48,778 nucleotides of DNA from Elusimicrobiota bacterium (GTDB taxonomy: Bacteria; Elusimicrobiota; Elusimicrobia; Elusimicrobiales; UBA9959). Below, one piece after another: positions 24,450 to 48,367 of this stretch (its first letter is position 1; every line of letters starts with the position of its first letter). The notes under the pieces are model-generated. The model had not been told where the DNA came from. It was given only the letters and a program-made list of their open reading frames with translations, and ran no database searches. Position numbers and translations under genes: made by a program. The DNA lies in contig JAUSCK010000145.1 of assembly GCA_030651035.1 (NCBI GenBank), forward strand, positions 1-48,778, given 5' to 3'.

Positions 24450-26603
24450 TCAGACCTCCAGCATCTTCTTCAGTTCCGAGCCTATTTTGCCGGTGTGGAA
24501 AGCGGAGCTTACCATAAAACCGGCGGAATGCTTCGCCTGGACCAGCAGCGCCTCGGCGGAAGTAACGGCGCAGGAAGCCAGGATGCACTCCAGGATCGCC
24601 TTTTTTCCGGCTTCCACGGCATTGTCTTCAGCGCCCTGGGCGGTGTCTTTAGGCAGTTTTTTCAGCGGGCTCGCGTTAACTTTACGCAGGGGCAATTTAT
24701 GGTCGGCGCCGGTCACCAGCTTCCAAACCGTCTTCAGGCAGGCGTCTACGGGGCCGGCATAGTCCACCAGCCAGCCTACCGCATCTTTCGCGCGCACCGG
24801 GCGGCCGGTCAACAGGAGCCTGAACAGCTCCGGCCACTTTTCCGGGGCGGTCTTGCGCAGCGGCCAGTGGCAGCCTTCCATGCCCGGAACGACGGGCAGG
24901 GTAACCTCCGGCATCCCCAGGCTGGCGTCTTCAACGCTTACCAGGTAGTGGCAGTGCAGCAGCAGCTCCAGGCACCCGCCGAAGCAGCGCTTGCCGCCGA
25001 TATAGCCCACGGAAACCTTGAAGTCGTCGTTCAGCCGGCGCGCGGTTTTGGACCAATCACGGGAGATACATAGCCCCTCTTTAACGTCCTTCAGCGCCGG
25101 GTAGAAATCCGCCGTATCAGCCCCAACCATCTGCGTAGAGAGGTGGAAATCGCCGGAGATTATAACTTTTTCTATCTTTTCTTTTTTCAGCCAGTCTATG
25201 GCCCGGTTCAGCTCCGCGTCCACGTCGCCGTTATAGCTCTCGCGGCTGATGGTTATCACGCCGGCGCTGCCGTCATGCTCGGCGTTCACGTACAGCTGCT
25301 GCCACTCGGGCGTCCCTATTTTTTCGAACGTCTCGGGATACCAGCATTTCTTTGCTTCGGGATGCAGTTTGTGATACTTGTTCACCAGCTTCGTCGCGGC
25401 GTCGCAGCCCTCGGTGCGTATCACCGAGAGAATGCCGCGCCTGAACTGGGCGCACAGCTCGCCTATGGCGTTGATATGCGTAAGGTGCGAGCGCTTTTCG
25501 TGCAGCAGCAGGCTGGTCATCTGGAACAGCGGGCCCAGGGTGCGGACCTTGAAATCCTCTTCCTCTTCCGGCCCCATTGACCAGTTCACCAGCGGGCGGA
25601 AGTGGTTAAGCGGATAATATTCGGAGCCCGTTTCCTTGCGGTCGTCCAGGTCCGCGTTCGGCCTGAACAGCTCGCCGTACTGCTCGCCGAGGTGGTGCAG
25701 GCAGGACCAGGTAAGGAAGTTCGCCCCTTTGGCGCCTATCGCGTCGTGCGCCCTGAACGGGTTCGCCCCCAGGAGCTTGCGGAAATATTTATCTATCTTC
25801 CAGTACGGCATGTTGGAAGCCTGGTGGTACCTGAGCGCCGCCAGGGTGGCGCCGCAGAACAGCACGTCCAGCACGAAGGACCAGTTGTCGCTTACGGGCA
25901 CGGGGACCATTCCCAGCGCCCACAGGAGCTTGGTGCCGGCGGTGGGTTTGGGCTCCACTATTTCCCAGATCTTGCTTATCTCGTGGGGGAAAGCCGGATG
26001 CGCTATCCCTACCCCCAGCTCGGAACTAGGGAAGCCGGAAGTGACGGAGCGGATGTCCAGACCGGGGAAAGCGCTCCGGAAAATTTTATAATGCTCTTTT
26101 TTTACGTCCAGGATCTCCGGTATGGCTTCCAGGAGAAACCTGGGTTTAAGCCCTTTGAGCTGCGGCGGCAGACTGTGGCCGTTATAGCTCATGCGGATTA
26201 TACTCTCCATTATTCTGCCGGCCCCTTCCCGCCCGAAGGTTTTCGCCAGCCCCGGGTAATGTTTGCCCAGCCCGTCGGGCGCGCCGGGAAAGTCGAGGGC
26301 CACTATAGGTACGCCGAACGGCTGAAGCCTGGAGGCCAGCTGCATCGCTTTGCCGGAGCCCACTATGCCGTTGGCGCCGGAAATGACCAGCGCCCCCCTG
26401 TCCCCGGCTTTCCCGAAAACCTGGTCCACCAGCTCGCCGGCGCCGGCGGGAAGCCGCCCGTTCTTGAAAATTTCAAGCACCGTGCCCAGGCCCAGCGTTT
26501 CCAGGGTGGGCTGTCTCATTGCCGAGATCGTCATAGTCTTTTCCTTGGGAGCGCCGAAAGCGCCCTTTGCCGCGGTGGTCGAAGCGGATGAATTTTTAGC
26601 CAT
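24450..26603 (-). CDS. fused 3-hydroxyacyl-CoA dehydrogenase / enoyl-CoA hydratase (inverted order)
   Basis: 717 residues; start with GGAGG. N-terminal half is a 3-hydroxyacyl-CoA dehydrogenase: Rossmann glycines G76-x2-G79-x2-G82 (SGANGIVGSG), EAIPEILDVK, and a His202...Glu214 pair at the same 12-residue spacing as the catalytic His-Glu of the family. The C-terminal half (about 430-640) is a crotonase: GGCLELLLHC and MPEVTLPVVPG keep both catalytic glutamates. The order is the reverse of FadB and like FadN. Likely substrates are 3-hydroxypimelyl-CoA and crotonyl-/3-hydroxybutyryl-CoA, given neighbours. The N-terminal 60 residues and the middle (about 250-430) are divergent from standard enzymes. 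Confidence 0.85.
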   Translation of the reverse strand: MAKNSSASTTAAKGAFGAPKEKTMTISAMRQPTLETLGLGTVLEIFKNGRLPAGAGELVDQVFGKAGDRGALVISGANGIVGSGKAMQLASRLQPFGVPIVALDFPGAPDGLGKHYPGLAKTFGREGAGRIMESIIRMSYNGHSLPPQLKGLKPRFLLEAIPEILDVKKEHYKIFRSAFPGLDIRSVTSGFPSSELGVGIAHPAFPHEISKIWEIVEPKPTAGTKLLWALGMVPVPVSDNWSFVLDVLFCGATLAALRYHQASNMPYWKIDKYFRKLLGANPFRAHDAIGAKGANFLTWSCLHHLGEQYGELFRPNADLDDRKETGSEYYPLNHFRPLVNWSMGPEEEEDFKVRTLGPLFQMTSLLLHEKRSHLTHINAIGELCAQFRRGILSVIRTEGCDAATKLVNKYHKLHPEAKKCWYPETFEKIGTPEWQQLYVNAEHDGSAGVITISRESYNGDVDAELNRAIDWLKKEKIEKVIISGDFHLSTQMVGADTADFYPALKDVKEGLCISRDWSKTARRLNDDFKVSVGYIGGKRCFGGCLELLLHCHYLVSVEDASLGMPEVTLPVVPGMEGCHWPLRKTAPEKWPELFRLLLTGRPVRAKDAVGWLVDYAGPVDACLKTVWKLVTGADHKLPLRKVNASPLKKLPKDTAQGAEDNAVEAGKKAILECILASCAVTSAEALLVQAKHSAGFMVSSAFHTGKIGSELKKMLEV

Positions 26604-26636
26604 AACATTCCTCCAATAAAAAAGCAGCCTATGCCG

Positions 26637-27833
26637 TTATCCTACCCTGAACAGGGCGGCGATGCCGACGTCGCCGGCGGCGCAGCCCATCAGCAATACG
26701 TAGCCGCCGCCCAGGTCCGTGGCCTCTTCCAGGCCTTCTATCAGCAGGCGGGTGAGCGTCGGGCCCTGCGGGTGCCCCCAGACCAGCGAGCAGCCGGTCC
26801 TGTTCATCTCGCGCCAGTTGTATTTGAACTCTTTGGCGAAGACGGCGTCGTTTATGGCGAACGGGTTGTGGGATTTGACCACAGCGATATCCTTCATCGC
26901 CACGCCCGTCCTGCGCAGCAGGTCCTTCACGGCCAGCGCCGGGGCCTCGGGCATCAGGCTGGGGCTGGTCCTTACCTCGGCCTTGGCCACGAATTGTATG
27001 TCTATCTCGGGCTTGCGGCTGAGCTCCCGGGCTTTCTCGCGGGTGGTGACCAGCATACATGCCATCCCGTCCGACGGGTGGGTCTGGGTTCCGCTGGTTA
27101 TGCAGGTGTCCAGCTCCCGCATCGCCCTGAGCCCGCGCAAAGTGTGGCGGGCCACGCCGGTGTCCGCGTCAATCACGCCCCGTACGCGGCCCTGCACGTC
27201 CAAAACCTCGAACGGCACCAGGACCTTCGCCAAGAAGCCCGACGCCTGGGCCTTGAAGTACTGCTCGTGGCGGCAGAGCGACAGCTCATCCACTTCTTTG
27301 CGGTCCAGCTTATATTTTCTGGCCGCATTGCCGGCGCAACAGATCATGGACCTGCCGGTGGACGGGTCGAAGCCGAAATTGTCCCAGACATCGCTCAGCG
27401 CCTCGGTCCGGCGGTGGGCCCGCCGCTCGGGGAAAATGCCGACCGGAGAATCGCTGGTCCGGTCGAAGGTAAGCACGCCGGCTACGTCGCTGGACCCGCC
27501 GTCCACTTCGGCGGCGGCCACTAGCACGGCCTTCAGGCCGGTGGCGCAGGCCTGCTCCACGTGGCAGCCGGCCACTCTGCGGCCCAGGCAGCTGGCGAGC
27601 ATCGGCGAGTTCCAGAACTTCCAGTGCCAGGGAATGGTGGAGCCGGTGATAAGGTGATCAAGCTCGCTCTTCGGGACCTTTCTCAGGCCCAGCACCTTAT
27701 TCATCGCCTCGGCGGCGAACTGGCCGATATTGACTTCGGCCAGCGGCGAAGCCTGCCAGGCGGGGAAATAGCTGCTCCCCCAGGTCCCATAAGGTATCCT
27801 GGCTCTCGGAAACATATTTTTCTGGATTCCCAT
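26637..27833 (-). CDS. divergent thiolase, possible 3-oxopimelyl-CoA thiolase
   Basis: 398 residues; start with AAGGAG. Thiolase fold with nucleophile Cys96 (VEQACATGL), NPFAINDAVFA in place of NEAFA (Asn kept), His354 (VWGHPQGPT) and Cys384 (LLMGCAAGDVG). The sequence departs strongly from the FadA/AtoB type at 23207-24412. It is directly upstream of, and probably paired with, the dehydrogenase-hydratase fusion, so the two may form a trifunctional-like complex that handles the dicarboxylic 3-oxopimelyl-CoA. That specificity is inference from position; catalytic residues are seen. Confidence 0.8.
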   Translation of the reverse strand: MGIQKNMFPRARIPYGTWGSSYFPAWQASPLAEVNIGQFAAEAMNKVLGLRKVPKSELDHLITGSTIPWHWKFWNSPMLASCLGRRVAGCHVEQACATGLKAVLVAAAEVDGGSSDVAGVLTFDRTSDSPVGIFPERRAHRRTEALSDVWDNFGFDPSTGRSMICCAGNAARKYKLDRKEVDELSLCRHEQYFKAQASGFLAKVLVPFEVLDVQGRVRGVIDADTGVARHTLRGLRAMRELDTCITSGTQTHPSDGMACMLVTTREKARELSRKPEIDIQFVAKAEVRTSPSLMPEAPALAVKDLLRRTGVAMKDIAVVKSHNPFAINDAVFAKEFKYNWREMNRTGCSLVWGHPQGPTLTRLLIEGLEEATDLGGGYVLLMGCAAGDVGIAALFRVG

Positions 27834-31535: not shown

Positions 31536-32351
31536 CTAAGCGGTTTTCGCGCTTACGGCTTCGGCCGCTTTCAACCTTTCCAGCGCGAAGAGCGCCGCGC
31601 CGAGCGCGCACACATATTCAGGCTCTTCGGGAACGTTTACCTGTATGCCCAGTTTAGCCTGGACGGTGGAGATCATGCCCTCCTGCCGGGCCACCCCGCC
31701 GATAAAGGTAAGGGAAGTCCCTATCCCGACGCGCCTTATCAGGGTAAGCGCCCGGTCGGCCAGCGAATCATGGATTCCGCGCACGATGTCCTCTATCTTA
31801 TAGCCGTCAGAAACATTGCTGATGATCTCCGACTCGGCGAGCACCGCGCAGACGCTGGAGATCTCCCGGGGGTCCGAGGAGGTAAGGGAGAGAGTACCCA
31901 TTTCGTCCACGGTGATCTCGAGGTATTTAGCGGCTTTCTCAAGGAAGCCGCCCGAGCCGGAAGCGCACTTCTCGTTGGTCTTGAATTCTTTGACCCTTCC
32001 CTTTTCCCCCACGCGGATGGCGCGCGAGCTCTGCGAGCCGATATCAAGGATGCAGGTCGTATCCGGGAACAGGAACCAGGCGCCGCGAGCCCCGCAGGTG
32101 ATCTCTGTGATCTGAATGTTGCGCGCAGGCACGGCGTAGCGGCCGAGGCCGGTGGTAGCTATATAGGAAATGTCCCGGCGGGTGAGCCCGAGCGGTTTAA
32201 GCACCTCGTCGAGCAACCCATCGGTCAGGCCCACGAAATCAGCCCGGGTTTTGGACCGCGCCTGCCCGAGAACGCTCCTGTCGGCCGCCAGGAGCACCAC
32301 TTTGGTGCTGCCCGCGCCCAGGTCTATGCCGGCGACAAGTCTATCTTTCAT
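31536..32351 (-). CDS. bzdQ: benzoyl-CoA reductase, Azoarcus type, ATPase subunit BzdQ
   Basis: 271 residues of the BadF/BadG/BcrA/BcrD ATPase family. Cys129 (NEKCASGSG) and Cys168 ([10 protein letters not shown]) are the two ligands that, together with those of the partner chain, hold a bridging [4Fe-4S] cluster. The phosphate-binding start [10 protein letters not shown] is intact; the second motif, usually DIGGQDTK, reads DIGSQSSR. It pairs with BzdP to couple ATP hydrolysis to electron transfer into BzdNO. Both ATPase chains being about 270 residues points to the Bzd type rather than Bcr/Bad, where one chain is about 440. Start overlaps bzdP by 4 bp. Confidence 0.88.
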
Positions 32352-33145
32352 TTTTCAGCCCCTATCGCCGCGGCTTTCGCCACCGCGAAGATCGCGGCGC
32401 CGATAGCGCCGGCAAAATGCGCGTCTGGGCTTATGTTTATCTTCAGGCCCAGCCTCTCTTCCAAAGCCTGTACCATGCCGACATTGCGCGATACCCCGCC
32501 GGTGAACGTAACTTCGGGGTCAAGACCAACACGCGCGGCCAGCGACAGCGTGCGCATAGCTATAGCTTTATGGACGCCGGAAAGTATGTCCTCTATCTTC
32601 TTACCCAGCACCAGGTAAGAAAGGATGTCCGACTCCACGAAAACGGTGCAGACGGTGGTAAGCTTCACCGGCCGCGTGCCCTTCAGCGAAATGGGCCCTA
32701 TCTCGTCCAATTCAAGCCCCGCGGCTTCTGCCGCGGCGGCAAGGAAGCGCCCCGTGCCCGCCGCGCATTTATCGTTCATTGAAAAGTCTATGACGTCGCC
32801 CGTCGGCCCTATACGGATGGCCTTGGTGTCCTGGCCGCCCATGTCCAGCACGGTGCGGGTGGACGGGAAAAGGAAATGCGCGCCGCGCGCGTGGCACGAG
32901 ATCTCCGTGATCTGGGACTGCCCGAAGGTTACCTTGTAGCGCCCGTAACCGGTACCTACCACGTAAGCTATGTCCTGCGTGTGCAGCCCCGCCGCCTTGA
33001 CCGCGATGGGAAAAGCTTTCTCCGCCGCCTTTATCACGTTCGCGCCGGTGGGGATTATCGCCTGCCCCAGCACCTTGCGGTTCTCGTCCATGACTACGGC
33101 CTTGGTCTGGGTGGAGCCTACGTCTACGCCTGCGCCGTATATCAT
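32348..33145 (-). CDS. bzdP: benzoyl-CoA reductase, Azoarcus type, ATPase subunit BzdP
   Basis: 265 residues. All activator motifs are canonical: [43 protein letters not shown], and cluster ligands Cys127 (NDKCAAGTG) and Cys166 ([10 protein letters not shown]). It forms the ATPase module with BzdQ, receiving electrons from reduced ferredoxin and delivering them to the BzdNO module at the cost of ATP. It overlaps bzdO and bzdQ by 4 bp each (ATGA), consistent with strict stoichiometry. Confidence 0.9.
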
Positions 33146-34476
33146 ACTCCGGCCCCCTTGGTGCTGTATTTCTTGTGCTCCAGGGCCTCGAAGAAAGCGT
33201 CAAAACGGTTCCTCATCTGGGCGGGAGAATAATAGCGCGGGTCCTCAAGGTCGGACTCGACGTACAGGGTGGGAATGCCCTTGGAAGTGAAGAACTCCCG
33301 CATGTCACCGTGCCCGGCGGAGAAGAGCCGGCAGCTCTTGACCGAATGGATGATCAGGGCGTCGGCGTTCCATTCCTTGATGTAGCGCAGGATCTGGTCG
33401 TAGCGCTGTATATAATTGCGGTTGCAGACATTGTGGACCAGCATATGCCGGGCGATGGAGTTAAGCGGGTCCCTGGGATCGTGCCGGAAGCCGAACTCGA
33501 AAGTTCCGCCCACGCAGGAGTAGGTGGAGGCCACGCTGCAGGCGCCCCAGGTGTTGAAAAGGTCGCGGAAAGCCTTGAAATAGGGATAAGGCGGCGGCGC
33601 TTCCACCACTACGCGGAAGCGCTCTTTCGCCACGGCGCCCACGCCGAGCCGCACCTTCTCCTCCATCTCGCGCAAAGCTTCTTCGAAGAAGCGCACGCCC
33701 TCCGGCGTGCCGCGGCTTACATAGAGGGGACCCATCATCGTGGTGGCGTCGAAGAAAGCTTCGTAGGGCGAGGGATTATTCTTCGCCGTCATTTTTATCG
33801 CGGACCACAGCTCCTCGGAGCGCGCGCTCAGCTTGAGGATCTCCCTCAGCCGGTCGATGTCGAAACTGCGGCCGGAAACTTTCTCCAGCAGCCGGATAAG
33901 GTCCTTGAGCTGGTCCGCCACGTACTTGATCTGCCCGGCGTCAGGCTCCTCGCCCTGCAGGAAAGGTATGTCCAGCGTGAAGAGCGGCGCTTTGGTGAAA
34001 TGGGCCAGGTGCTCGAACCACTTTATATAAGTATTGCAGCCGACGAAATTATTCAGGATCAGGGAGGGCTTCGGGATGCGCGTCCCCTGGGCGGTCTCGG
34101 CCCCTTCAAGGTAGAAAGCCATATCAGCTTTCACATAGCCGCAATTGTCCGTGGAGTAGCCCATATCCTCGGCTTTCAGCAGGTATTCCAGCGCTTTCTT
34201 GCGGATGGCCAGCTGCAGGGCGTTTATTTCGGGATAGACCGGCAGCAGGTCGAAAGCCTGCAGCAGCTCCACGCAGTTGCCGGAGATCATCAGCGGCACC
34301 GCGCCGGTGGCGCCGGACCCGGGCAGCGGCACCGCGTTAGAGGCCTGCTGCCTCTGCCACACGCCGTGCAGTTCTTTGTACCAGCGGGTGATAATTTCTT
34401 TCTGCAGGGCGTGCATCCGGCCCTGGTAGTGCACGTGTCCGGCCGCTTTGGGGTTTTCCTTGGGGGTGTCAGTCAT
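33142..34476 (-). CDS. bzdO: benzoyl-CoA reductase, Azoarcus type, subunit BzdO
   Basis: 444 residues from the ATG at 34476 (overlap ATGACTGA with bzdN); the longer frame to 34509 adds residues inside bzd[49 protein letters not shown], and [12 protein letters not shown] are typical of the BcrB/BzdO/BadE chain. Probable cluster ligands are Cys112, Cys147 and Cys382 by comparison with the family. Together with BzdN it holds the substrate and reduces the aromatic ring of benzoyl-CoA by two electrons to cyclohexa-1,5-diene-1-carbonyl-CoA. Confidence 0.92.
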
Positions 34477-35635
34477 ATGCGAATAGCTGCGATTCCACGA
34501 AAGTTTCAAGCTCCATGCGGGCCTTATCGAAGGTCCACATTTTTTCCTCGAATTCTATCAGCAGGTGCGGTATGCCCTCGCGCTCGAGCACATCCTTGAA
34601 GAGGACATAGTCGAACAGGCCGGGCTCGCAGAATTTGGCGTAGATAAAAAGCACGGCCTGCGCTTTGTTGCTCCGCACCCGCTGCACCATAGCCTCCGTG
34701 CGGGGCACCCCCGGGTTATGCCTTACCGAGGAAGGGACCGGGCTCTTCATATAGGCTTCGGCCAGGGCGGAGAAGGGGTTTCCCTTAACGGGTACGTCCT
34801 GGTCGAACCACCGGCGGCCGATAAGGAGGTCGTCGTCCACAGCGAAGCAGCCGACCGCGTCAAGGAGCTCCAGCAGTTCGATGGGCGGCTGTTCGCAGAA
34901 GGAGCCCTCCACCAGCACCCTTATGCCGTCACGGGGCTTGTTGCTCCGCGCTTCGAAATCCGCCAGACAGTCCGCCAGCATCTTGTTGTGTTCTTCGACG
35001 GGGAGAATGCCTCCGGCGCGCGTCAGCAGGCTGAGCTCCGCGGTGAGCACGTCCTGCGGCCGCTCCGAACGCAATTTGTAGAGGCGGCGATGAAGGCCGC
35101 GGTTGATATTGTAGAGGCCTATGGACTTCCGGATGGCGTCCAGATCCGGCTTGCGCCCGCGCAGGGCGGCCAGCTTGGTATAGATCCTTTCGTACTCGCC
35201 TCCGAGGAACGCCGCTGCGGCGGCCCCGTCCGGTTTCTGGGGCAGGTGGAAGTACTCCATGAACAGTTTGTCCTTAAAATTGCGCTCGAATAGCCAGGCG
35301 AGGTTGCGCGCCGAGTCGCAGATATCGTGGAAGACCACGCCGTCAAGGACGTCCAGGTGGCCCTTCATGCCCAGTTCCATGGTGCTCTTTACTATGGAGC
35401 AGATGAAGGAGCCGAAGCGGGAGTCCGCGGCGGTGATCTCTATCTGGTTGCCGCCGCCGTGCACGGCCACGGGCAGGTAGCCCGCGGCGTGGTATAGCTC
35501 GAGGGGGCTGTAGACGGGGAAGTAGCCTATCGCCCCGTCGCCGGTTTTTTCCTTATGGCTGCGCACGCTGGCGTAGCTCATGTCCTCGGTAAGTTCCCTG
35601 CAACGCGCAAGGGCGGCCTCAAGCTTGCCGCTCAT
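34469..35635 (-). CDS. bzdN: benzoyl-CoA reductase, Azoarcus type, subunit BzdN
   Basis: 388 residues, BcrC/BzdN/BadD family. GYFPVYSPLELYHAAGYLPV at the N-terminus, SRFGSFICSIVKS, VFHDICDSARNLAW and FIYAKFCEPGLFDY give Cys79, Cys106 and Cys336 as probable cluster ligands. First gene of the 13.7-kb operon bzdNOPQ-hcr-thiolase-dehydrogenase-thiolase-gcdH; the gene order N-O-P-Q equals that of Azoarcus. A sigma70-type promoter (35710-35739) lies 75 bp upstream, overlapped by an inverted repeat that could be an operator. Confidence 0.92.
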   Translation of the reverse strand: MSGKLEAALARCRELTEDMSYASVRSHKEKTGDGAIGYFPVYSPLELYHAAGYLPVAVHGGGNQIEITAADSRFGSFICSIVKSTMELGMKGHLDVLDGVVFHDICDSARNLAWLFERNFKDKLFMEYFHLPQKPDGAAAAAFLGGEYERIYTKLAALRGRKPDLDAIRKSIGLYNINRGLHRRLYKLRSERPQDVLTAELSLLTRAGGILPVEEHNKMLADCLADFEARSNKPRDGIRVLVEGSFCEQPPIELLELLDAVGCFAVDDDLLIGRRWFDQDVPVKGNPFSALAEAYMKSPVPSSVRHNPGVPRTEAMVQRVRSNKAQAVLFIYAKFCEPGLFDYVLFKDVLEREGIPHLLIEFEEKMWTFDKARMELETFVESQLFAYD

Positions 35636-37883: not shown

Positions 37884-38912
37884 TTAGAGCAGTATGATGG
37901 ACCGCAGGAGAGTCTGGTCGTGACTTCTTAGAAGGTCGAAGGCGCTGTTTATATCGCTGAGCGGGAACCTGTGGGTTACGAGCTCCTTGAGCTTTATCTT
38001 TCCGAGCCTTACCATCTCTATTACCTTGGGGAAATCTACAGGCCTGCAGCCCAGGGAGCCGGTAATCTCCATTTCCCTGAACATTATCCTGGCGGGGCTT
38101 ATGGTAAGCGGGTCGGAGCTGTAGCCGAGGACGACCATCTTGCCGCCTGACCTGATAGAGCTGAAAGCTGTCTCCAGGGTCTGGGTCAGACCGATGGCTT
38201 CCAGGGCGATATCAGCCCCCCCGCCTGTCATCTTCCTGATCTTCTTGGCGGTGTCCTCGCCTTTTACGGCCAGCACCGTTTCTGACGCGCCCAGGCTCCG
38301 CGCCAGGTTCAGCTTTCCCTCGACAGCGTCGACCGCTATAACTTTGGCGCCCATGGCGGCGGCCACCTGCACCACGTTCATCCCGACTCCGCCGCAGCCG
38401 AAGACCGCGATAACGTCTCCCGGCTTCAGGTTGGCCCTGTTCTTGAGGGCGTGGAAAGGGGTGGCGAGGGCGTCGGTTATGATCGCGGCTTCCTCTAAAG
38501 GAATTTCGTCGGGAAGCGGGATCACGTCCTTTTCGCTGACCGTCAGGTATTCTGCGAAAGCGCCGTTAATATGGTTGCCCAGCATGATCATGTTCTCGCA
38601 GATATTCTCTTTGCCGGTGCGGCACAGGAAGCACTCCCCGCAGGAAAACACCGGGGGAATTATAACCCTGTCGCCCTTCTTTAATTTCCTGGCGTCAGGC
38701 CCGACTTCCTCCACCACTCCGGAGGGCTCGTGGCCCAGTATGAGCGGCGGCTTTTTGAAAGTGGGCACGCCGTGGTCGAGATAGTGCAGGTCGGTGTGGC
38801 AAACACCGCAGGCCCGTATCTTTATCAGGACCTCGCGCCCCGTGGGGCGGGTGACGGGAATCTCTTCTATTTTAAGCGGGCTGCCTTTTTCGTAAAAAAT
38901 TGCGGCTTTCAT
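37884..38912 (-). CDS. had: 6-hydroxycyclohex-1-ene-1-carbonyl-CoA dehydrogenase
   Basis: 342 residues from the ATG at 38912, which has AAGGAG and overlaps the dch stop (ATGA). Zinc alcohol dehydrogenase: catalytic zinc region Cys35/Cys38 (CGVCHTD) and His61-Glu62 (GHEPSG), structural zinc Cys91, 94, 97, 105, and NAD site [13 protein letters not shown]. Its place between the dienoyl-CoA hydratase gene and etfB, with Oah nearby, is the basis for assigning it to the oxidation of 6-hydroxycyclohexenoyl-CoA to the 6-oxo compound (Had/BzdX). General alcohol dehydrogenase is the fall-back. Confidence 0.82.
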
Positions 38913-39679
38913 GATATTTTTTCTCCTTTTGCCTGCTGCCATACCGGCTTTCTCTTTTCCAGGAAAGCCGCAAGCCCTTCGTTCCCGTCTTCAGTCTTCG
39001 CCAGGACGTCGAGATAGATGTCCTCGGCCTCCTTAAGCTTTGCCGGGAAATCCGCCAAGTGCAGTTTCTTGAACCCCTTCTTGGTGAGATGGAAAGAGGA
39101 ATCGCTCAGGTCGGCGAACCGGAGCAGGTGTTTTTTTGCCTCTTCTTCGAAATTCGCGGCGTCGAGCAGCTTGTTGACCAGCCCCAGTCTGTAGGCCTCG
39201 GCGGCGCTCATTGTTTCGCCGGAGAGGATGAAATCCAGCGCCGCTTTCGGCGGGAAGAAGGCGGGGAAGGCCGCCAGCGCCACCGGCGGAAAAAGCCCCA
39301 GCTTTATCTCCGGCTGGCCGAACTTGGCCTTTTCGCTGGCCAGGACCACGTCGCAGAAAAGCGCCAGTTCGCAGCCGCCGCCCAGGGCCGCCCCGTTGAC
39401 GCAGGCCACTGTTATCCCGTCAAAAGAATGCAGGAGAAGAAAGACCTCGCCGAAGGTCCTGATCATCTCGCTAACCTGCGCCGGGAGGTGCTCTTTTATA
39501 TCCGCCCCGGCGCTGAAAGCTTTTTCGCCGGACCTGAAAACAAGTATCCTGTAAGACCCGCTTAAGAGCTCGCGCAGGGCCGCCTGGATTTCTTTAAGCA
39601 TGGCAATATTCAGAATGTTGTAGGGAGGATTGTTCAGCGTTATTGCGAATACCGGGCCTTCCTTTTCTATTTTGATCAT
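38909..39679 (-). CDS. dch: cyclohexa-1,5-diene-1-carbonyl-CoA hydratase
   Basis: 256 residues, crotonase fold. Oxyanion-hole stretch [12 protein letters not shown] and active-site glutamates Glu104 (GGGCELAL) and Glu124 ([13 protein letters not shown]). The GLFPPVAL region recalls Dch/BzdW/BadK sequences (GVF-P) rather than the GxIPG of standard crotonases. It adds water to the diene formed by benzoyl-CoA reductase, giving 6-hydroxycyclohex-1-ene-1-carbonyl-CoA. Overlaps the SDR gene upstream and had downstream by 4 bp each. Confidence 0.83.
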
Positions 39680-40430: not shown

Positions 40431-40513
40431 TAAGGATTAAGTGGTAAGGATTAAGTAAAGCATAATTCCTAATCCCTAATCCTTAGTACTTAATCCTTAA
40501 TCCTTAATCCTTG
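40431..40513. repeat. inverted repeat of 7-bp aatcctt/aaggatt units between oah and the SDR gene
   Basis: 40431-40456 holds two aaggatt units on the plus strand; 40464-40513 holds five near-copies of the reverse unit (aatcctt). They can fold into a long imperfect hairpin. The array fills nearly all of the 77-bp gap and runs into the oah gene, coding its last residues (ARIKD) and stop. Confidence 0.8.
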
Positions 40514-41642
40514 CCTCCATCGGCTTGGGCAGCACCGCTTCCATGAAAGCTTCATCTACGGGTCTCCCCTTGGCTATCAGCTGTCTGTATTCGACAAAAT
40601 CGATAACGTCCTTGCCTGTCGCCTTCTTCGAATTAAAAGCGTTGAAGCCCATATAGGCCTCGGTGTTCATATTCGCGGCCAGCCAGTGGCGGTTATAGCT
40701 TTTGGCCTGGTCCCAGAAATATTTCTTCTTCGCCCGCATGCTGTCCAGCGTCTTCGCCAGGCAGCCCGGGAAGAGGTTGGTCAGTTTCCAGATAGTGTTA
40801 TTTACGGCTTTGTCGAGCAGGGTGAAATCTATCTGCGCGGTCTTTAGGAACTCCCGCGCCGCCTTCCCCGCCTCCCCCGCGACAAACTCGCCGTAAACTA
40901 TTTCTCCGTCGTCAACGTATTTATCCGTGATGACTCCGGGATTGCGGATGAATTTCCCGTCTTTTTTTATGACCTGCGCCACCTGGCCGATCATTCCCAT
41001 CTTCTTTACCTTGTAAGCGCTCAAAAGCTCGCAGGAGATGCAGTTCCAGATGGCGTCCTCTATGCTCAGGTACCAGGGCAGGAAATCGGTGGAGCCGCCG
41101 TCGGGGGCAGAGCCGTGCCTGGGCCCCGCCTGGCCGAAAATAGCCGTATCGGCGGCGATGGTGATGTCGCAGGCCATACCTATCTCTTGGCCGCCGGCAA
41201 TCCTCATTCCGTTCACGCGGCAGATGGTCGGTTTCTTGCAGTGGAGGATGGAATCCACCATCCCGTTGAAAAGGTCCATGTATTCGCCGTATTCGTTCGG
41301 CTTGCCGGAGTAGTACTGCGCGTACTCTTTGGTGTTTCCCCCGGTGCAGAAGGCCCTGTCCCCGGCGGCGGTGAAAACTACCGCCACCACGGTCCTGTCG
41401 AGCGAGGCGTTATGGAAGCCGGAAATAACGCCTTTCACCATACCGGTGGTATAGGAGTTGAGTTGCGCGGGGTTGTTAAGGGTGATCCAGGCGGAGTACA
41501 GGCCTTCTACTTTCTTGCCCGAAACGTCGAGGATGGGCCTCTTCTCGTACATGGTGCAGGGCGCCTCGGTGCCCCAATGCTCTTTGCCCCAAAGTGAATG
41601 GTCTTTAAGTTCATCATCTTTTATCAGCCAGGATAAGCTCAT
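40497..41642 (-). CDS. oah: 6-oxocyclohex-1-ene-1-carbonyl-CoA hydrolase
   Basis: 381 residues, crotonase superfamily. Distinctive Oah/BamA blocks are all present: SLWGKEHWGTEAPCTMYEKR at the N-terminus, NGMRIAGGQEIGMACDI (about 144-160), and RHGSAPDGGSTDFLPWYL (about 175-192), the region used as a marker of anaerobic aromatic degraders. It adds two waters and opens the ring, giving 3-hydroxypimelyl-CoA. This is the most diagnostic gene of the locus. The last five codons derive from a repeat, so the natural C-terminus is slightly altered without loss of the core. Confidence 0.94.
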   Translation of the reverse strand: MSLSWLIKDDELKDHSLWGKEHWGTEAPCTMYEKRPILDVSGKKVEGLYSAWITLNNPAQLNSYTTGMVKGVISGFHNASLDRTVVAVVFTAAGDRAFCTGGNTKEYAQYYSGKPNEYGEYMDLFNGMVDSILHCKKPTICRVNGMRIAGGQEIGMACDITIAADTAIFGQAGPRHGSAPDGGSTDFLPWYLSIEDAIWNCISCELLSAYKVKKMGMIGQVAQVIKKDGKFIRNPGVITDKYVDDGEIVYGEFVAGEAGKAAREFLKTAQIDFTLLDKAVNNTIWKLTNLFPGCLAKTLDSMRAKKKYFWDQAKSYNRHWLAANMNTEAYMGFNAFNSKKATGKDVIDFVEYRQLIAKGRPVDEAFMEAVLPKPMEARIKD

Positions 41643-41685: not shown

Positions 41686-42648
41686 TCAATATCTGCGCTC
41701 CACTCCCCTAACCAGGGCCGAAATGGCCCTGAGGAACGGAACCGGAACTTTGTTCTCGGCGGCATACTCGCATATCTTCCCGTTCAGGAATTCTATTTCC
41801 GTCCGGCCGGTAGTTCCAACGTCCACGAGCATGGAGGGTTTGTGGTGGCCGGCCTTGGTGAGGTAGGAGATGCAGAAATCGAGGAATTTGTCCGGCAGGG
41901 TGACCCCGCTGCGCCCGGCTACTTCGATCGCCTCCCTGGCCAGTTCCGTGATGAGTTCCCTCGTCGGGGGATACTCCATGGCCTGCTTCATTGTCATCCC
42001 GGTGATGGCACAGACTGGGCTCAGCATTGAATTCAGGATCACTTTCTCCCAGACCTGCCGCTTAATTGCGGGGCTGTACATTGTGACGAGCCCCGCGCGG
42101 GTGAGAACTTCGCAGACAGCCCGGGCTCGCTGAACCGCTCCGGCCTCCAGCGCCCCTATGTAGTTCGGTTTATTGAAAAAGGTTATTTCCACCGCGCCGT
42201 CCGGGGTCAATTTCCCGGCGTAGTTCACCACGGCCCTTAGAACGTTTCCCCGGCCCGCGGCCTGGGCCAGCAGTTCTTCCGTGTCCAGCCCGTTCTGGAA
42301 GCTCACCAGTTTCGGCCCGGCCGGCCCGCCGCAAATCTCCTTAAGCTCCGGGAGCATGGACCTGATGGCCGAGGCCTTCGTACAGATAAAAATGGTTTCG
42401 GCGCCCAGCCGCGCGGCCTCCCGCAGGGAAAGGCAGGTTTTTTTAGCTTTCACCGTGAAAGACCCGTGCGAGAAAGGCGCGGGGTCAAGGATGGACAGCC
42501 CTTCTTTCTTGATCTGCGCCAACCGGCTCTTCAAAGAGTCCGCCAGGATCACCTCTTCCCTGTTTCTCAGGAGGTGGGCCGCCAGAATGGTCCCCACCAC
42601 CCCGCTCCCGACGATAGCGAACCTGTTTTTCTTCATATTCTGGCCCAT
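41686..42648 (-). CDS. PanE/ApbA-family 2-oxoacid reductase
   Basis: 320 residues. N-terminal NAD(P) motif FAIVGSGVVGTILAAHL, then VSFQNGLDTEE (the N-G contact typical of ketopantoate reductase) and the all-alpha C-terminal domain with KRQVWEKVILNSMLSPVCAI (catalytic Lys and Asn). Family members reduce 2-ketopantoate, but some (for instance in Lactococcus) reduce other branched or aromatic 2-oxoacids to D-2-hydroxyacids. No other pantothenate genes are nearby, so a catabolic role is more likely. Start either at 42648 or at the ATG four codons later. Sits between oah and the AMP-forming ligase. Confidence 0.85.
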   Translation of the reverse strand: MGQNMKKNRFAIVGSGVVGTILAAHLLRNREEVILADSLKSRLAQIKKEGLSILDPAPFSHGSFTVKAKKTCLSLREAARLGAETIFICTKASAIRSMLPELKEICGGPAGPKLVSFQNGLDTEELLAQAAGRGNVLRAVVNYAGKLTPDGAVEITFFNKPNYIGALEAGAVQRARAVCEVLTRAGLVTMYSPAIKRQVWEKVILNSMLSPVCAITGMTMKQAMEYPPTRELITELAREAIEVAGRSGVTLPDKFLDFCISYLTKAGHHKPSMLVDVGTTGRTEIEFLNGKICEYAAENKVPVPFLRAISALVRGVERRY

Positions 42649-42676: not shown

Positions 42677-44248
42677 TCAACAGGGCTCAATGCCTGCGCC
42701 TGGCGCGGAGCCGAATTTCCTGCGCAGTTCCCTGTGCAGTATCTTGCCGGTGGGGGTCCTGGGCATCTCGGCCGCCTTGATGAAGGCTACGGTTTTAGGC
42801 TTCTTGAAAGACGCCGCCTTTCCCGCGCAGAAATTTATTATCTCAGCCTCGCTCGCAGTCCCGCCTTCCCGCAGTATCACCACCGCTTTAATGCTTTCTC
42901 CCCAGATCTTGTCGGGAACTCCGATGACCGCTGCGTCAAAAACCGCCGGATGGCCCGCGATCACCGCTTCGATCTCGGACGGGTAGACGTTCTCGCCCCC
43001 CGTTATTATCATATTATCTTTTCTGTCCACAATATAATAATACCCGTCTTCGTCTTCCCTCGCCATATCCCCGGCCGAGAACCAGCCGTCCCTGAACGAC
43101 TGCGCTGTTTTTTCAGGCAGCTTGTGGTATTCGTCGAACAGCATCGGGCCTTTGGAGTAAAGCTCGCCCGCAACCCCGGCGGGAACGGGCCGTCCGTCCG
43201 GGCCGAGTATCCGGACCAGGCTTGTCCCGCACGATTCCCTTCCGATAGAGCAGAGCTTGCTCAGCTGTTCATGCGGCTTGAGCACGGTGACTATCCCGGC
43301 CTCGGTAGAGCCGTAAGCTTCATAAAGCTCTACCCCTTTGAACATCTCCATCACCGCCGTCTTCATCTCCCTCCGGGCCGGGGCCGAGGAGCAGAGAAGC
43401 TTGCGGATCGAACCGAGCTCGTACAGCTTTCTTTTTTCCGCGGGCACGGTAAGCATAAGGTTGTAATGCGTCGGGATGAGGGAGATGAACGTTATTTTTT
43501 CCCGCTGGATAATGTCGAAGATCTCCGCCGGGTCAAAGCGCCGGGCCGGCTGGATGTAGAGGCTTGCGCCGAGGTAGGTGAAGGTGAAGGAGAAAAAAGT
43601 GGAATTAACGTGGCACAAAGGCATCACGTTCAGACAGATGTCAGTCTCGCCGAACCCGAAATCTACGGCGCTTATAAGGTAGAATGCGATATAGGATTCA
43701 TGCGAGCGCACTACGCCTTTCGGCTTTCCTGTCGTGCCCGAGGTGTAAAGCAGTACCCAGGGGTCCTGCGGGTTTAATTCCGCTTTGGGCTCGTCTTCGG
43801 GCGCTGCTGCCAGCAGGGTTTCATAATTGTGGTAGCCCGGCGGCGGGTTGTCCCCTACGGAGATAAAGTTCTTAATACCCGGGAGATGCTCATTTACGCT
43901 GTAGCGGGCGAATTCTTCGTGCGCGATAACCGCTTTCGCGTCCGAGTTGGTGATTATGTATTCCACCTCGCACGCGGCCAGCCTGAAGTTTATCGGGTTT
44001 ATTACGATCCCCGTTTTAGCGGTGGCGAGATAGAGCTCAACGATCTCGATAGAATTCTCCAAGAGGCAGGAAACCTTGTCGCCTTTCCCGAGGCCCAGCG
44101 AAGTAAGCGCGTTAGCCAGGCGGTTGGCCCTCAGGTTCAACTGCCCGAAAGTGAGGGTCCTGTTATTCTCCCTCAGGGCGACCTTGTCCCTGAACTTCCT
44201 GGCGTTCACCGCCGTGATCTCCCCGAGGTTAAGCCAGTGAGCGCCCAT
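42677..44248 (-). CDS. AMP-forming acyl-CoA synthetase, candidate aromatic acid-CoA ligase
   Basis: 523 residues, ANL superfamily. P-loop LLYTSGTTGKPKGVV, A5 motif YEAYGSTEAG, A8 DRKDNMIITGGENVYPSEIE and the catalytic lysine in PRTPTGKILHREL are present. It forms an acyl-adenylate, then acyl-CoA, AMP and PPi. It does not look like the classical benzoate-CoA ligase subgroup but like the broad medium-chain/cyclohexenecarboxylate group, so substrate (benzoate, 4-hydroxybenzoate, cyclohexane acids) is open. Start overlaps the ADP-forming synthetase stop by one base (TAATG). Confidence 0.88.
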   Translation of the reverse strand: MGAHWLNLGEITAVNARKFRDKVALRENNRTLTFGQLNLRANRLANALTSLGLGKGDKVSCLLENSIEIVELYLATAKTGIVINPINFRLAACEVEYIITNSDAKAVIAHEEFARYSVNEHLPGIKNFISVGDNPPPGYHNYETLLAAAPEDEPKAELNPQDPWVLLYTSGTTGKPKGVVRSHESYIAFYLISAVDFGFGETDICLNVMPLCHVNSTFFSFTFTYLGASLYIQPARRFDPAEIFDIIQREKITFISLIPTHYNLMLTVPAEKRKLYELGSIRKLLCSSAPARREMKTAVMEMFKGVELYEAYGSTEAGIVTVLKPHEQLSKLCSIGRESCGTSLVRILGPDGRPVPAGVAGELYSKGPMLFDEYHKLPEKTAQSFRDGWFSAGDMAREDEDGYYYIVDRKDNMIITGGENVYPSEIEAVIAGHPAVFDAAVIGVPDKIWGESIKAVVILREGGTASEAEIINFCAGKAASFKKPKTVAFIKAAEMPRTPTGKILHRELRRKFGSAPGAGIEPC

Positions 44249-46368
44249 TATATTTTGATCCTCATATCCGCCGCGGCCGTCCTGGACGGGTCCCGGTACG
44301 CGAAGATGGGGTTTAAATCCAGCTCGGCTATCTCCGGAATGTCGGTCACCAGCTGCGACAGCCTGATGAGGATTTCCGCGAGCTTTTCCGTATCGGCGCC
44401 CTCTTTGCCCCTGAATCCTTCAAGGATGGCATGACATTTTATCGACGCGACCATTCTTTGGGCCGCCTGCCTGCTTAAAGGCGCGAATTGGAAGACGACA
44501 TCCTTCAGAACCTCTACATAGACGCCGCCCAGCCCGAACATGACAACATGCCCCACCCCGGCCACGGCATGCGCGCCCGCTATTATTTCAATCCCGGCCG
44601 GCAGCTGCTTTTGTACGAGGAAGCGCGGGCGGGAAGCAAGGGACTTCATGCCGTTAAATCCAGCGGCGAGTTCCTTTTCGTCACATATATTCAAAACTAC
44701 CCCGCCGGCCTCGGTTTTGTGAACTACGTCCGCGGAATCGATCTTGAGGACCACGGGGAAGCCGATTTTTCCTGCGGCGGAAAGGCATTCTTGCAGATTT
44801 CCGCAATTTTCGGACGGCGCCCGCGGTATGCCGTACGAATCCAGGATTATCGCGCACTCCCGGGCGCCCAGTATAGTCCTCTTTTCCTTAAGGGCAGCGC
44901 TTATCACCGAGCGGACGGCGGTTTTGTCCACATCCTTGAACGGCGCAAAAACTTCCCTGCTCCGGTTGCGGTACTCCGACATTCTGGACATCGCGCCCAG
45001 CACTTTCGCGGCTGTTTCAGGGAAGTCGTAGACGGGGATGCCGCTTTCTTTTATGATCTGCAGGGTATTGCCCTGCTGCGCCTTGTCCGTCATTATTACA
45101 GCGGCTACCGTCTTTTCCTTCCCCGCGCAGGCCTTGACTATTTCCCGGGCGACGCTCTCGCAGTCGACAAAGAAAGGGGTTATAAAATTAACAAGAATTG
45201 AATCAGTGCCACTGTCCTTCATTAATTCCCCGAGGGCGAGACTATAATGTTCGGGCCTTGCCGTGGCCAGCACATCCACGGGGTTTCTCGTCGCGGCTTC
45301 GGGAAAAAGGCCGTTTTGAAGCGCCTCGCGGGTATTGTCCGGCAAAGGCGGTATAAGCAGCCCGGCCTCAACGCAGCCGTCGACGGCAATGACCCCGTGC
45401 CCGCCCGTGTTGGTGACAATGGCAACCCTTTTGCCTTTGGGGAGCGGCTGCGCGGCGAAGGCGATCGCCGCCTGGCACAATTCATCCTGGTCATTGAAGC
45501 TGACAACCCCGCATTTCTCCAGCATGAGCTCTATGGGGATCCCGCTGCCCATAAGCCGGCCTGTGTGGGAGACGACCGCCCGCGCACCCTCGGCCGTCCT
45601 CCCGGTTTTGATGGCCAGCACAGGCTTCTTTCGGCCGACCCTCGAGGCTATTTCCATGAATTCTTCCGGATCGGCAAGACTTTCCAGGTGGATTATTATT
45701 ACTTTCGTTTCCTCGTCGTCAGCCCAGTAGTTCATTATCTCAGGAATGCTTATGTCCGCCGCGTTCCCGTTCGAGGCGTACATCCTGAAACCCGAGCCGA
45801 GAGAATTCAATCTCTGGATTATTACCTCGCCAACCCCGCCGCTCTGGGCCGCTACGGAGATAGCGCCCCTTGTCAGTTTGGTGAAGGTGAAGTTGCAGTA
45901 CGCCCGGACGCCCGGGTCGGAGTTTATGATCCCCTGGCAGTTAGGCCCGAAGACCCGTATTTTCGCTTTCGCGGCTATCTTGATTATCTTATTTTCAAGA
46001 GCTATCCCTTCCGCCCCCGCCTCGCTGAAGCCCGCCGTATTTATTATCGCCGCCTTGACAAAATTCCTGCCGCACTCCTCAAGCGTCGCGGGAACAAGCG
46101 TATTCTTCACAACGATATGCGCGACATCAACGCCGCCCGGGACGTCCAGTATGGACTTGTAGGTTTTCAGGCCCAGGATCGTATCTTCCACGGGGTGGAC
46201 AGGATAGACCGCCCCTTTATAACCTGAATCTGAAAGATTCCGGAGGATCTGGTGGCCGATGGTAAGCGGCCTGTTCGACGCGCCGATGACGGCGACGGAC
46301 TTAGGCTTGAAAAGGAAATCGAGGGCTACCGGCTTATTGATTATGTCGGGGTTGCGTTGATTTTTCAT
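44248..46368 (-). CDS. ADP-forming acyl-CoA synthetase, fused alpha-beta (Acd type)
   Basis: 706 residues. Order: CoA-binding Rossmann domain (KSVAVIGASNRPLTIGH, about 22-150), succinyl-CoA-ligase-like domain with GNAADIS and the phosphorylated His268 in VVSHTGRLMGS, a linker domain (about 310-460), and a C-terminal ATP-grasp domain (VVLKIDSADVVHKTEAGGV). This is the fused alpha-beta form of ADP-forming acetyl-/acyl-CoA synthetase. It can make ATP from acyl-CoA, ADP and Pi, or activate an acid at the cost of one ATP to ADP. Between the ligase and activator genes, with 1- and 4-bp overlaps, so it is part of the aromatic operon. Confidence 0.92.
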   Translation of the reverse strand: MKNQRNPDIINKPVALDFLFKPKSVAVIGASNRPLTIGHQILRNLSDSGYKGAVYPVHPVEDTILGLKTYKSILDVPGGVDVAHIVVKNTLVPATLEECGRNFVKAAIINTAGFSEAGAEGIALENKIIKIAAKAKIRVFGPNCQGIINSDPGVRAYCNFTFTKLTRGAISVAAQSGGVGEVIIQRLNSLGSGFRMYASNGNAADISIPEIMNYWADDEETKVIIIHLESLADPEEFMEIASRVGRKKPVLAIKTGRTAEGARAVVSHTGRLMGSGIPIELMLEKCGVVSFNDQDELCQAAIAFAAQPLPKGKRVAIVTNTGGHGVIAVDGCVEAGLLIPPLPDNTREALQNGLFPEAATRNPVDVLATARPEHYSLALGELMKDSGTDSILVNFITPFFVDCESVAREIVKACAGKEKTVAAVIMTDKAQQGNTLQIIKESGIPVYDFPETAAKVLGAMSRMSEYRNRSREVFAPFKDVDKTAVRSVISAALKEKRTILGARECAIILDSYGIPRAPSENCGNLQECLSAAGKIGFPVVLKIDSADVVHKTEAGGVVLNICDEKELAAGFNGMKSLASRPRFLVQKQLPAGIEIIAGAHAVAGVGHVVMFGLGGVYVEVLKDVVFQFAPLSRQAAQRMVASIKCHAILEGFRGKEGADTEKLAEILIRLSQLVTDIPEIAELDLNPIFAYRDPSRTAAADMRIKI

Positions 46369-47144
46369 TTCTTCCGTATCACAGCTATCTCTTCGGCGAA
46401 AAGCGCCGCGCCCAGGGCCCCGGCGAACTGCGGGGAGGGCGAGATAAACAGAGGTCTGCCCAGTTTCTTTTCAAGCATTTCCCCCAGGTAAGGATTGTGC
46501 GCTATCACGCCGCCTGTCATCACGATGTCGCCTTCCAGCGGGTCCATTTCGATAATTCTCTTTATGATCGAGCCGAAGACTCCCTTTACAATGTCTTCCA
46601 GCTTAACCCCCTGGGCGATCTTGGAGAGGATCTCGGTCCTGGTAAAGACCGCGCAGAAGGAGCCCAGCTCTATCTCCGTCAGCGCCTTCCGGGCCAGGCC
46701 TTCCAGCTCCCCGATAGAAACCGAAAGCCTGGGCGCAATTTCTTCCAGGAGCGCGCCGGTGCCGGCGGCGCACTTGCGGTTCATCTTGAACGAGACGGGC
46801 TTTCCCGCGTTGTCAAGCTTGATGATCTTGTTGTCCTGGCCCCCGATATCCACTATCGTGCAGGCGCGGGGATGATAAAAGTAGCCGCCTTTGGCGTGGC
46901 AGGAGATCTCTGTTCTTGTGTCGTCGGCGAAGGCCGCATTTCTTCTGCCGTAGCCGGTGGTCACGGTGCAGTCCAACTTGTCCCCGGCCCCAGCGGCGGC
47001 CAGGCACTTTGAGCGCGCCTCCGCAGCGGCCAGCGCGAAGTCCACGCCGGAATTTCTGGTGTAGGAAGCTAGCACCTTCCGGTCCCTGTCGAGAAGGACC
47101 GCCTTGGTAGCCGAAGCCCCTATGTCAATTCCCAGGAACATCAA
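46365..47144 (-). CDS. second BadF-type ATPase/activator paralog
   Basis: 259 residues of the HgdC/BadF activator family. GIDIGASATKAVL, VTTGYGRRNA, TEISCHAKGGYF, VDIGGQDNKII, and cluster ligands Cys125 (NRKCAAGTG) and Cys164 (GSFCAVFTRTE) are all intact. As only one such chain is encoded here, it probably acts as a homodimer, as in 2-hydroxyacyl-CoA dehydratase activators. It is translationally coupled (ATGA) to the upstream gene 47141-48367, whose product it should activate by ATP-driven single-electron transfer. Confidence 0.93.
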   Translation of the reverse strand: MMFLGIDIGASATKAVLLDRDRKVLASYTRNSGVDFALAAAEARSKCLAAAGAGDKLDCTVTTGYGRRNAAFADDTRTEISCHAKGGYFYHPRACTIVDIGGQDNKIIKLDNAGKPVSFKMNRKCAAGTGALLEEIAPRLSVSIGELEGLARKALTEIELGSFCAVFTRTEILSKIAQGVKLEDIVKGVFGSIIKRIIEMDPLEGDIVMTGGVIAHNPYLGEMLEKKLGRPLFISPSPQFAGALGAALFAEEIAVIRKK

Positions 47145-48367
47145 TTCTCCAGTTGTTCTATGAAGGCTTCTATCTTTGTTTTTGACTGTTCTTCCGAGTA
47201 GCAGCGAAGGTCGTTAAGGTCCCCGAAAATGGTAACAGTGCCTATGTCGAGAGTTTTTTGCAGCCTCTCCGGCATCCCGTATCTGCTGTTCGTATTATTG
47301 GGGCAGGTCTTTGAGTCGTGGAAGAGTATGCCGTCAATACCGAATTTCCTGACCATGTCCCTGATATATTCCTCTTTCTTCTCGTCGGAGCGGACAATGA
47401 AGAGCCGCGTGTAGGCCATGGCCATGCTCTTGAAAGGGTCTGCCGGATCAAGATCTTCAAAGATCCAGGAGTTGCAATAGGTGGACGCGGCCACGCAGGT
47501 TTTCAGGCCGGCAAAAAATCCCGAAAGATCCCGCAGTTTTCCCCAGATCGGCATCCCATCCCAGTAAAGCCTGTGTCTTTCCCCTTCTATCGCCCAGACG
47601 CCGTCCTTTATTCTGGTCTGGAGCTCCGCGAGAAAAGTTTTATAGTAATCTACGGCCGGCTTGGTTCCCCGTAAAACCACCGCCGGGCCCATCTGGATGG
47701 TCGCGTCAAAGAAGGTGAGGGGAGAGGGAACGTTGCCGGCGGTCTCCAGGACCTTGCGCCAGAGCCGGCTGCATTCCAAAGAAAGGCTTACAGCCTCTTT
47801 AAGCTTATCCAGGTCGAATTTGCTTCCGGATATCTCCTCGAGTTTCGGGGCCAGGGCAATAAACTGCGCGGCCACGCTGTCGATATGGGCGCTGGTAACT
47901 TCATTCACCCCCCGGGGAGTGCAGACCCCGAGCAGGGGGACCTTGAATTTATCTGCATACCAGGCAAACCAGTCCTGCACGTCCCTGCACTGGTTCGTAT
48001 TGTATACCAGAACGTCGGGCCTGGGCGGCCTCTCTATGCCGGGATAGGCCCTGGAAAGCGGCGTTTCTCCCTTGATACAGGCCCCGACATCGCTTGTAAG
48101 GTAGGAGCAGATCTCCGGGGAATACCCGGCCGCGTTCGCGAGAGGGATGCAGTCCTGGGCCATCCTTGTCGCGCCCAGCATGGCGCCGTGATTTTCCGGA
48201 AAGTAGACAAGAAAGCCCATGGCCCGAAGCAGCTCGGCGGGGCCGACGCTGGTACACCAGGCAATCTTCCGGCTTCCGGTCCTGGCCGCTTCATCCAATT
48301 CGTAAAAATAATCCGCCATGACCTTCTTCATCGCGGCAGTAGAGGTAAATTCTCTTCTTTTGTCCAT
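47141..48367 (-). CDS. lone BzdO/BcrB-like (2-hydroxyacyl-CoA dehydratase family) iron-sulphur subunit
   Basis: 408 residues, homologous along its length to BzdO: GPAELLRAMGFLVYFPEN, GYSPEICSYLTSD, NTNQCRDVQDWF, DATIQMGPAVVLRGT, and DSKTCPNNTNSRYGM align with the corresponding BzdO blocks. Cys87, Cys127 and Cys355 match the three probable cluster ligands; eight more cysteines (38, 73, 97, 149, 199, 291, 298, 389) occur. Other subunits of the family work as heterodimers with a second HgdB/BzdN-like chain, but none is adjacent. It may work alone (compare double-cubane proteins with YjiL-type reductases), or with BzdN. Reaction unknown. First gene of its operon; no clear ribosome binding site. 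Confidence 0.88.
   Translation of the reverse strand: MDKRREFTSTAAMKKVMADYFYELDEAARTGSRKIAWCTSVGPAELLRAMGFLVYFPENHGAMLGATRMAQDCIPLANAAGYSPEICSYLTSDVGACIKGETPLSRAYPGIERPPRPDVLVYNTNQCRDVQDWFAWYADKFKVPLLGVCTPRGVNEVTSAHIDSVAAQFIALAPKLEEISGSKFDLDKLKEAVSLSLECSRLWRKVLETAGNVPSPLTFFDATIQMGPAVVLRGTKPAVDYYKTFLAELQTRIKDGVWAIEGERHRLYWDGMPIWGKLRDLSGFFAGLKTCVAASTYCNSWIFEDLDPADPFKSMAMAYTRLFIVRSDEKKEEYIRDMVRKFGIDGILFHDSKTCPNNTNSRYGMPERLQKTLDIGTVTIFGDLNDLRCYSEEQSKTKIEAFIEQLEN

Follow-up and report, generated by a model that had tools for sequence, protein, structure and literature searches.

The 2-hydroxyacyl-CoA dehydratases (HADs) and class I benzoyl-CoA reductases (BCRs) characterised so far all use two different catalytic subunits and are heterodimers (PMC11971306); a natural alpha-only enzyme would test the purpose of the second one. 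Among the HADs, HadBC-HadI (PDB 3o3m) is an (R)-2-hydroxyisocaproyl-CoA dehydratase and FldBC an aryllactyl-CoA dehydratase. The class I BCRs (BzdNO, BcrBC and MbdNO, the last a 3-methylbenzoyl-CoA reductase or MBR) join an alpha subunit of the HGD-D family to a beta subunit (which carries a double cubane in BzdN) and have two activator subunits. Homodimeric HGD-D proteins with a dedicated activator (DCCP-R) are represented by the double-cubane cluster protein (DCCP/YjiM), an architectural precedent for a design with one catalytic subunit that the gene content described here fits. We analysed a 48,778-nucleotide stretch of an Elusimicrobiota genome (the window; contig JAUSCK010000145.1, assembly GCA_030651035.1), in which an HGD-D gene on the reverse strand (47141-48367, hereafter the orphan) adjoins its own activator gene. 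Our data indicate that the orphan very probably works without a beta subunit and that this alpha-only form of HAD/BCR enzyme is widespread, not a single-contig oddity.

The orphan is an open reading frame of 408 amino acids with an ATG start, and it passes the Pfam profile for HGD-D (PF06050) with 208.9 bits against a gathering score of 28.4. Its best NCBIfam model is HadB (194.6 bits), followed by BcrB (123) and BzdO (72), all below the equivalog cut-offs (750 for HadB, NF052455; 487 for BcrB; 449 for BzdO); the double_cubane (DCCP) model gives 46 bits against 350. In an IQ-TREE phylogeny, alpha-type and beta-type subunits split with support of 100/100, the 28 sampled orphans formed one clade on the alpha side (100/99), and DCCP grouped with the beta subunits, apart from the orphan (100/100). 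A FastTree phylogeny of 111 rows agreed with this placement. The orphan is of the alpha type, on the side of HadB, BzdO and BcrB, with the positions of HadB and BzdO inside that side uncertain because of long branches. The AlphaFold2 model (mean pLDDT 93, pTM 0.92) is closest in fold to HadB (Z 50.8, 1.6 Å over 390 residues), ahead of BzdO (Z 47.5), MbdO (42.3) and DCCP (33), while identity to the HadBC-HadI and FldBC systems is about 28%. An earlier note on this DNA had called the protein BzdO-like: the HGD-D alignment holds, and the label is imprecise in that, among described proteins, HadB and BcrB/MbdO stand closest to it.

Residue conservation, counted over 89 orphan-family sequences, extends the likeness to HadB into the active site. 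S40 and E58 are invariant (89/89) and correspond to Ser37 and Glu55 of HadB, which we take from the HadBC structure to be catalytic; E58 also matches Glu65 of BzdO. Equally invariant are C87, C127 and C355, equivalent to Cys95, Cys128 and Cys380 of BzdO and aligned with the ligand positions of HadB and MbdO, so that the three probable cluster cysteines proposed in the earlier note are borne out. W37 corresponds to BzdO Trp46, and the position of BzdO His131 holds valine, as in HadB (BzdO residue assignments from PMC11971306). Two extra cysteines are conserved as well, C38 in all 89 sequences and C298 in 85. C298 aligns with the column of BzdN C263, probably a double-cubane ligand, and C38 lies one residue out of register with the N-terminal double-cubane cysteine of BzdN and DCCP; given this offset, C38 was rejected as an exact double-cubane ligand and we claim no such role for it. 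One divergent paralogue of the orphan (L096:19387-20706), which adjoins an activator of its own and a Had-like gene, retains C38 and C298 but has S, G and T in place of the three cluster cysteines.

The search for a second subunit covered the source genome, its relatives and the wider family. The whole source genome encodes three HGD-D genes, namely the orphan and the ring-reductase pair of the same window, and no open reading frame was found on the orphan's strand between 48367 and the contig end. Since the contig stops at 48778, an upstream beta gene was sought in the two closest relatives (G006 and G033, 84-86% identity), where 16-17 kb upstream of the orphan contained no beta subunit and encoded acyl-CoA dehydrogenase/EtfBA or 2-oxoacid oxidoreductase subunits. 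A second-subunit gene just past the window, which the earlier note had marked in advance as decisive against its own claim, was rejected on the evidence of these two relatives. A pattern scan of 84,980 genomes yielded 80 orphan loci (about 61-86% identity) in many phyla, with hosts among Desulfobacterota, Geobacter, Chloroflexota, Planctomycetota, Zixibacteria, Delongbacteria and several Elusimicrobiota families. None of the 80 has a beta gene in the orphan's operon, and only two (L071 and L096) have another HGD-D gene nearby, on the opposite strand. In 7 of the 58 genomes searched whole, the orphan is the sole HGD-D gene.

Most genomes with the orphan are metagenome-assembled genomes (MAGs), and the isolate Geobacter argillaceus shows the same pattern: its three full-length HGD-D genes all belong to the orphan clade and each adjoins an activator. 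A fourth HGD-D match (L125:1381-2028) is the 215-residue N-terminal half of a beta-type protein; its C-terminal half was not found in this genome, and the fragment, as the sole candidate, was rejected as an intact partner. It is perhaps a remnant of a lost partner or of another system. The earlier note's description of a subunit with its own activator and no partner chain is thus sustained by the 80 loci and by this isolate. The three paralogous G. argillaceus (G347) units lie on C15, C28 and C30 (L036, L116/L159 and L120/L160), two of them near iorAB, an arrangement that suggests different substrates. Our literature search, to which subscription journals were external, found no description of an alpha-only HAD; an activator homologue without catalytic subunits has been described in G. 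metallireducens (PMC1924859).

The activator gene (46365-47144, reverse strand) follows the orphan directly on its 3' side with no gap. Its product matches BcrAD_BadFG (171 bits) and exceeds the cut-off of the acyl-CoA dehydratase activase family CoA_E_activ (222 against 125.4 bits), in line with the intact activator reported earlier, and the two cluster cysteines, C125 and C164, together with C82, are kept in 75 of 75 activators. A TTG start at 47144 would give a 4-nt overlap with the orphan, whereas an ATG at 47141, with GGAG in front, would give a 1-nt overlap (TGATG); the ATG is the more likely start, and the two genes are predicted to be translationally coupled under either. The coupling described in the earlier note therefore stands, its 4 bp applying only with the TTG start. 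HadBC-HadI and FldBC likewise have a dedicated activator, while class I BCRs have two activator subunits against the orphan's one activator gene.

Around the orphan, a conserved module recurs. Over the 45 loci flanked on each side of the orphan by 3 kb or more, the activator is present in 44, an ADP-forming acyl-CoA synthetase in 33, a PanE-like 2-oxoacid reductase in 26 and an AMP ligase in 22; besides these, no further neighbour is conserved in most loci. Thiolase (23/45) and FadB-like (13/45) genes also occur, as do IorA (15/45), IorB (10/45), PaaK (11/45) and an ACT-domain pair protein (14/45), and this last group points to aromatic 2-oxo acids. CoA for the orphan's substrate apparently comes from the synthetases, not from a CoA-transferase as in HadBC-HadI/FldBC. 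In the relative G033, the orphan and its activator are separated by inserted DNA (L012:18084-19977) that carries a DNA adenine methylase-like gene accompanied by one further gene.

The family is also linked to the benzoyl-CoA pathway. Of 341 Elusimicrobiota genomes, six encode Oah, and each of these is among the nine that carry the orphan (Fisher P 4e-11, kinship not corrected for); outside this phylum, 37 of 50 carriers have an Oah match, 33 of them over the cut-off. Seven of eight carriers tested have AFOR-family genes, assigned at the family level and possibly including class II BamB; G. argillaceus and G361 each have several such AFOR (BamB-family) genes. With these genes there and the window's own Bcr pair, ring reduction need not rely on the orphan. 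For a benzene-degrading sulphate reducer, a study from 2026 put forward a route from phenylpyruvate through phenyllactyl-CoA and cinnamoyl-CoA to benzoyl-CoA, with the dehydratase unassigned (PMC13416013). That organism has a FldB-related "singular gene", BzS1_13720, whose product is 30% identical to FldB and was weighed for cinnamoyl-CoA formation toward benzoyl-CoA, though it was not detected in the proteome (PMC13416013). This gene may belong to the orphan family, and the orphan is a candidate for the cinnamoyl-CoA-forming dehydratase sought in anaerobic aromatic degraders.

Given the Bcr pair of the source genome and the AFOR genes of most carriers tested, the most economical role for the orphan is to supply enoyl-CoA for beta-oxidation to (substituted) benzoyl-CoA. 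We favour, with about even confidence, the reading that it is an alpha-only, ATP-activated (R)-2-hydroxyacyl-CoA (likely aryllactyl-CoA) dehydratase, likely a homodimer, acting upstream of benzoyl-CoA. Taken singly, dehydration rather than reduction is probable from residues and neighbours, a homodimer is the most likely assembly, and aryllactyl-CoA is a plausible substrate at slightly less than an even chance. The PanE-like reductase or a flavin dehydrogenase would provide a 2-hydroxy acid, which the adjacent synthetases would turn into its CoA ester. A homodimeric activator would dock on the symmetric orphan homodimer and, driven by ATP, pass one electron to a [4Fe-4S] cluster on C87, C127 and C355; water would then be eliminated by a ketyl radical route assisted by S40 and E58. 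The enoyl-CoA product would pass to the neighbouring FadB-like and thiolase enzymes, and aryllactyl-CoA substrates would thereby give an aroyl-CoA such as benzoyl-CoA, to be degraded by the rest of the operon. Among the options listed in the earlier note, dehydration of a different CoA ester and a homodimer fit best, both as proposals about reaction and assembly.

Several points weigh against this reading. BcrC is encoded in the source genome, in the same directional gene run as the orphan, so a mixed complex is possible there. The seven orphan-only genomes are MAGs and may be incomplete. C38 and C298 are absent from HadB, BzdO, MbdO and the window's BcrB, and different chemistry is possible. 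Finally, in one Delongbacteria MAG (G349), oah and the orphan occur without a further HGD-D gene or any AFOR gene, the content that would be expected were the orphan itself the ring reductase. With contigs as short as 8-11 kb, this assembly may simply lack some genes, and the contig that bears oah breaks off within an xdhB-like gene, close to a place where bcr genes might come next; missing bcr genes are the simpler reading, and we rejected this genome as proof of ring-reductase function.

These points define the alternatives. That the orphan borrows the BcrC-like beta subunit and, served by its own activator, makes up a second heterodimer would keep to the heterodimeric rule of the characterised enzymes (PMC11971306), but an intact beta-type gene is missing from the isolate G. 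argillaceus and from seven or more genomes in which the family conserves all the active-site residues, which makes this unlikely; the earlier note's pairing with the window's beta chain (its BzdN) is likewise improbable as a general mode. A single-subunit class I BCR, acting as an alternative aryl-CoA reductase, would account for the strong co-occurrence with the benzoyl-CoA pathway and for G349, where oah and the orphan occur with no class I pair and no AFOR-type gene. We consider it improbable to a similar degree: S40 and E58 are of the HadB type, valine replaces the acid/base His131 of BzdO, sequence and fold are nearest to HadB, the window locus has another ring reductase, and the neighbours suit beta-oxidation of an enoyl-CoA.

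Nor is it likely that the orphan is a homodimer with a non-canonical cluster, in which C38 and C298 would form a second sub-cluster, an extra ligand or a redox pair, with new chemistry between DCCP and HAD. The conservation of both cysteines and the place of C298 in the C263 column of BzdN, a double-cubane carrier (PMC11971306), speak for it; C38, however, is off by one residue, there is no third distal cysteine, tree and fold make the orphan alpha-type, and in known alpha subunits substrate fills that space. The double-cubane idea of the earlier note accordingly fails in its simple form, DCCP lying on the beta side, while C38 and C298 leave room for a modified cluster or active site. A broader version, in which the family comprises phylum-spanning alpha-only homodimeric radical enzymes and the C38/C298 pair alters the cluster or active site of every monomer, is doubtful, if slightly less so than these alternatives; if true, it would make the second HAD/BCR subunit dispensable and supply a route, so far unassigned, that leads from aryl 2-hydroxy acids to benzoyl-CoA. 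Least likely, and by our estimate quite improbable, is completion of the enzyme by a partner from another family or by a beta gene missed in incomplete assemblies: most of the genomes are MAGs, yet the pattern holds in an isolate, and the conserved neighbourhood offers no partner beyond the activator, synthetases and PanE-like gene. A natural alpha-only enzyme would also make ATP-driven radical chemistry simpler to study. The tight link to benzoyl-CoA, seen in several phyla, suggests that aromatic 2-hydroxy acids from aromatic amino acid breakdown enter the pathway by a route not yet described.

The genes 3' of the activator are on the same strand and overlapping or closely spaced, in the order ADP-forming acyl-CoA synthetase, AMP ligase, PanE-like reductase, Oah, SDR, crotonase, Had-like, EtfBA, thioesterase and ring-reductase subunits (Table 1). 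The ring reductase had been labelled BzdN/BzdO in the earlier note, a label that gives way here: for the alpha subunit the BcrB model gives 305.6 and the BzdO model 129, for the beta subunit BcrC gives 305.5 and BzdN 106 (NCBIfam, all below cut-offs), and among solved structures MbdO/MbdN come closest. By these sequence comparisons, the reductase at 33142-35635 is Bcr/MBR-like, not Bzd.

Table 1 Features of the window discussed in the text
Feature	Coordinates	Strand	Remarks
Orphan, alpha-only HGD-D protein, 408 aa	47141..48367	-	Cluster ligands C87/C127/C355; catalytic positions S40, E58; extra C38, C298
ASKHA-type activator of orphan (2-hydroxyacyl-CoA dehydratase activase)	46365..47144	-	C125, C164, C82; start TTG 47144 or, more likely, ATG 47141
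ADP-forming acyl-CoA synthetase (ATP-grasp/Succ_CoA_lig)	44248..46368	-	Conserved orphan neighbour
AMP-forming acyl-CoA ligase	42677..44248	-	Conserved orphan neighbour
PanE/ApbA-like 2-oxoacid reductase	41686..42648	-	Conserved orphan neighbour
Oah, 6-oxocyclohex-1-ene-1-carbonyl-CoA hydratase	40497..41642	-	563.9 bits vs curated cut-off 464.45
Crotonase, possible dienoyl-CoA hydratase (Dch)	38909..39679	-	Under equivalog cut-offs
Zinc alcohol dehydrogenase, Had candidate	37884..38942	-	Best model dearomat_had, under cut-off
Beta-type ring-reductase subunit (BcrC/MbdN-like)	34469..35635	-	Sole beta-type HGD-D gene of the genome
Alpha-type ring-reductase subunit (BcrB/MbdO-like)	33142..34509	-	
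BcrA- and BcrD-like activator pair of ring reductase	31536..33145	-	
Divergent FadB-like fusion and thiolase	24450..27833	-	Fusion 24450-26603; thiolase 26637-27833

The window thus holds, at 21927-48367, a class I benzoyl-CoA gene set (bcrCBAD-like, oah, had- and dch-like), which is now placed in Elusimicrobiota; a literature search for Elusimicrobia with benzoyl-CoA gave nothing relevant. Between the bcr genes and the thiolase lie xanthine dehydrogenase-type molybdenum hydroxylase genes (27843-31468), whose product could serve 4-hydroxybenzoyl-CoA, with scores far under that family's cut-off. The 717-residue protein of 24450-26603 has no Pfam match over the gathering score, and its weak matches to 3HCDH_N, 3HCDH and ECH suggest a very divergent FadB-like fusion. 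With the thiolase, it forms the far end of the orphan's gene run, and in another locus (L040) these two genes stand immediately upstream of the orphan.

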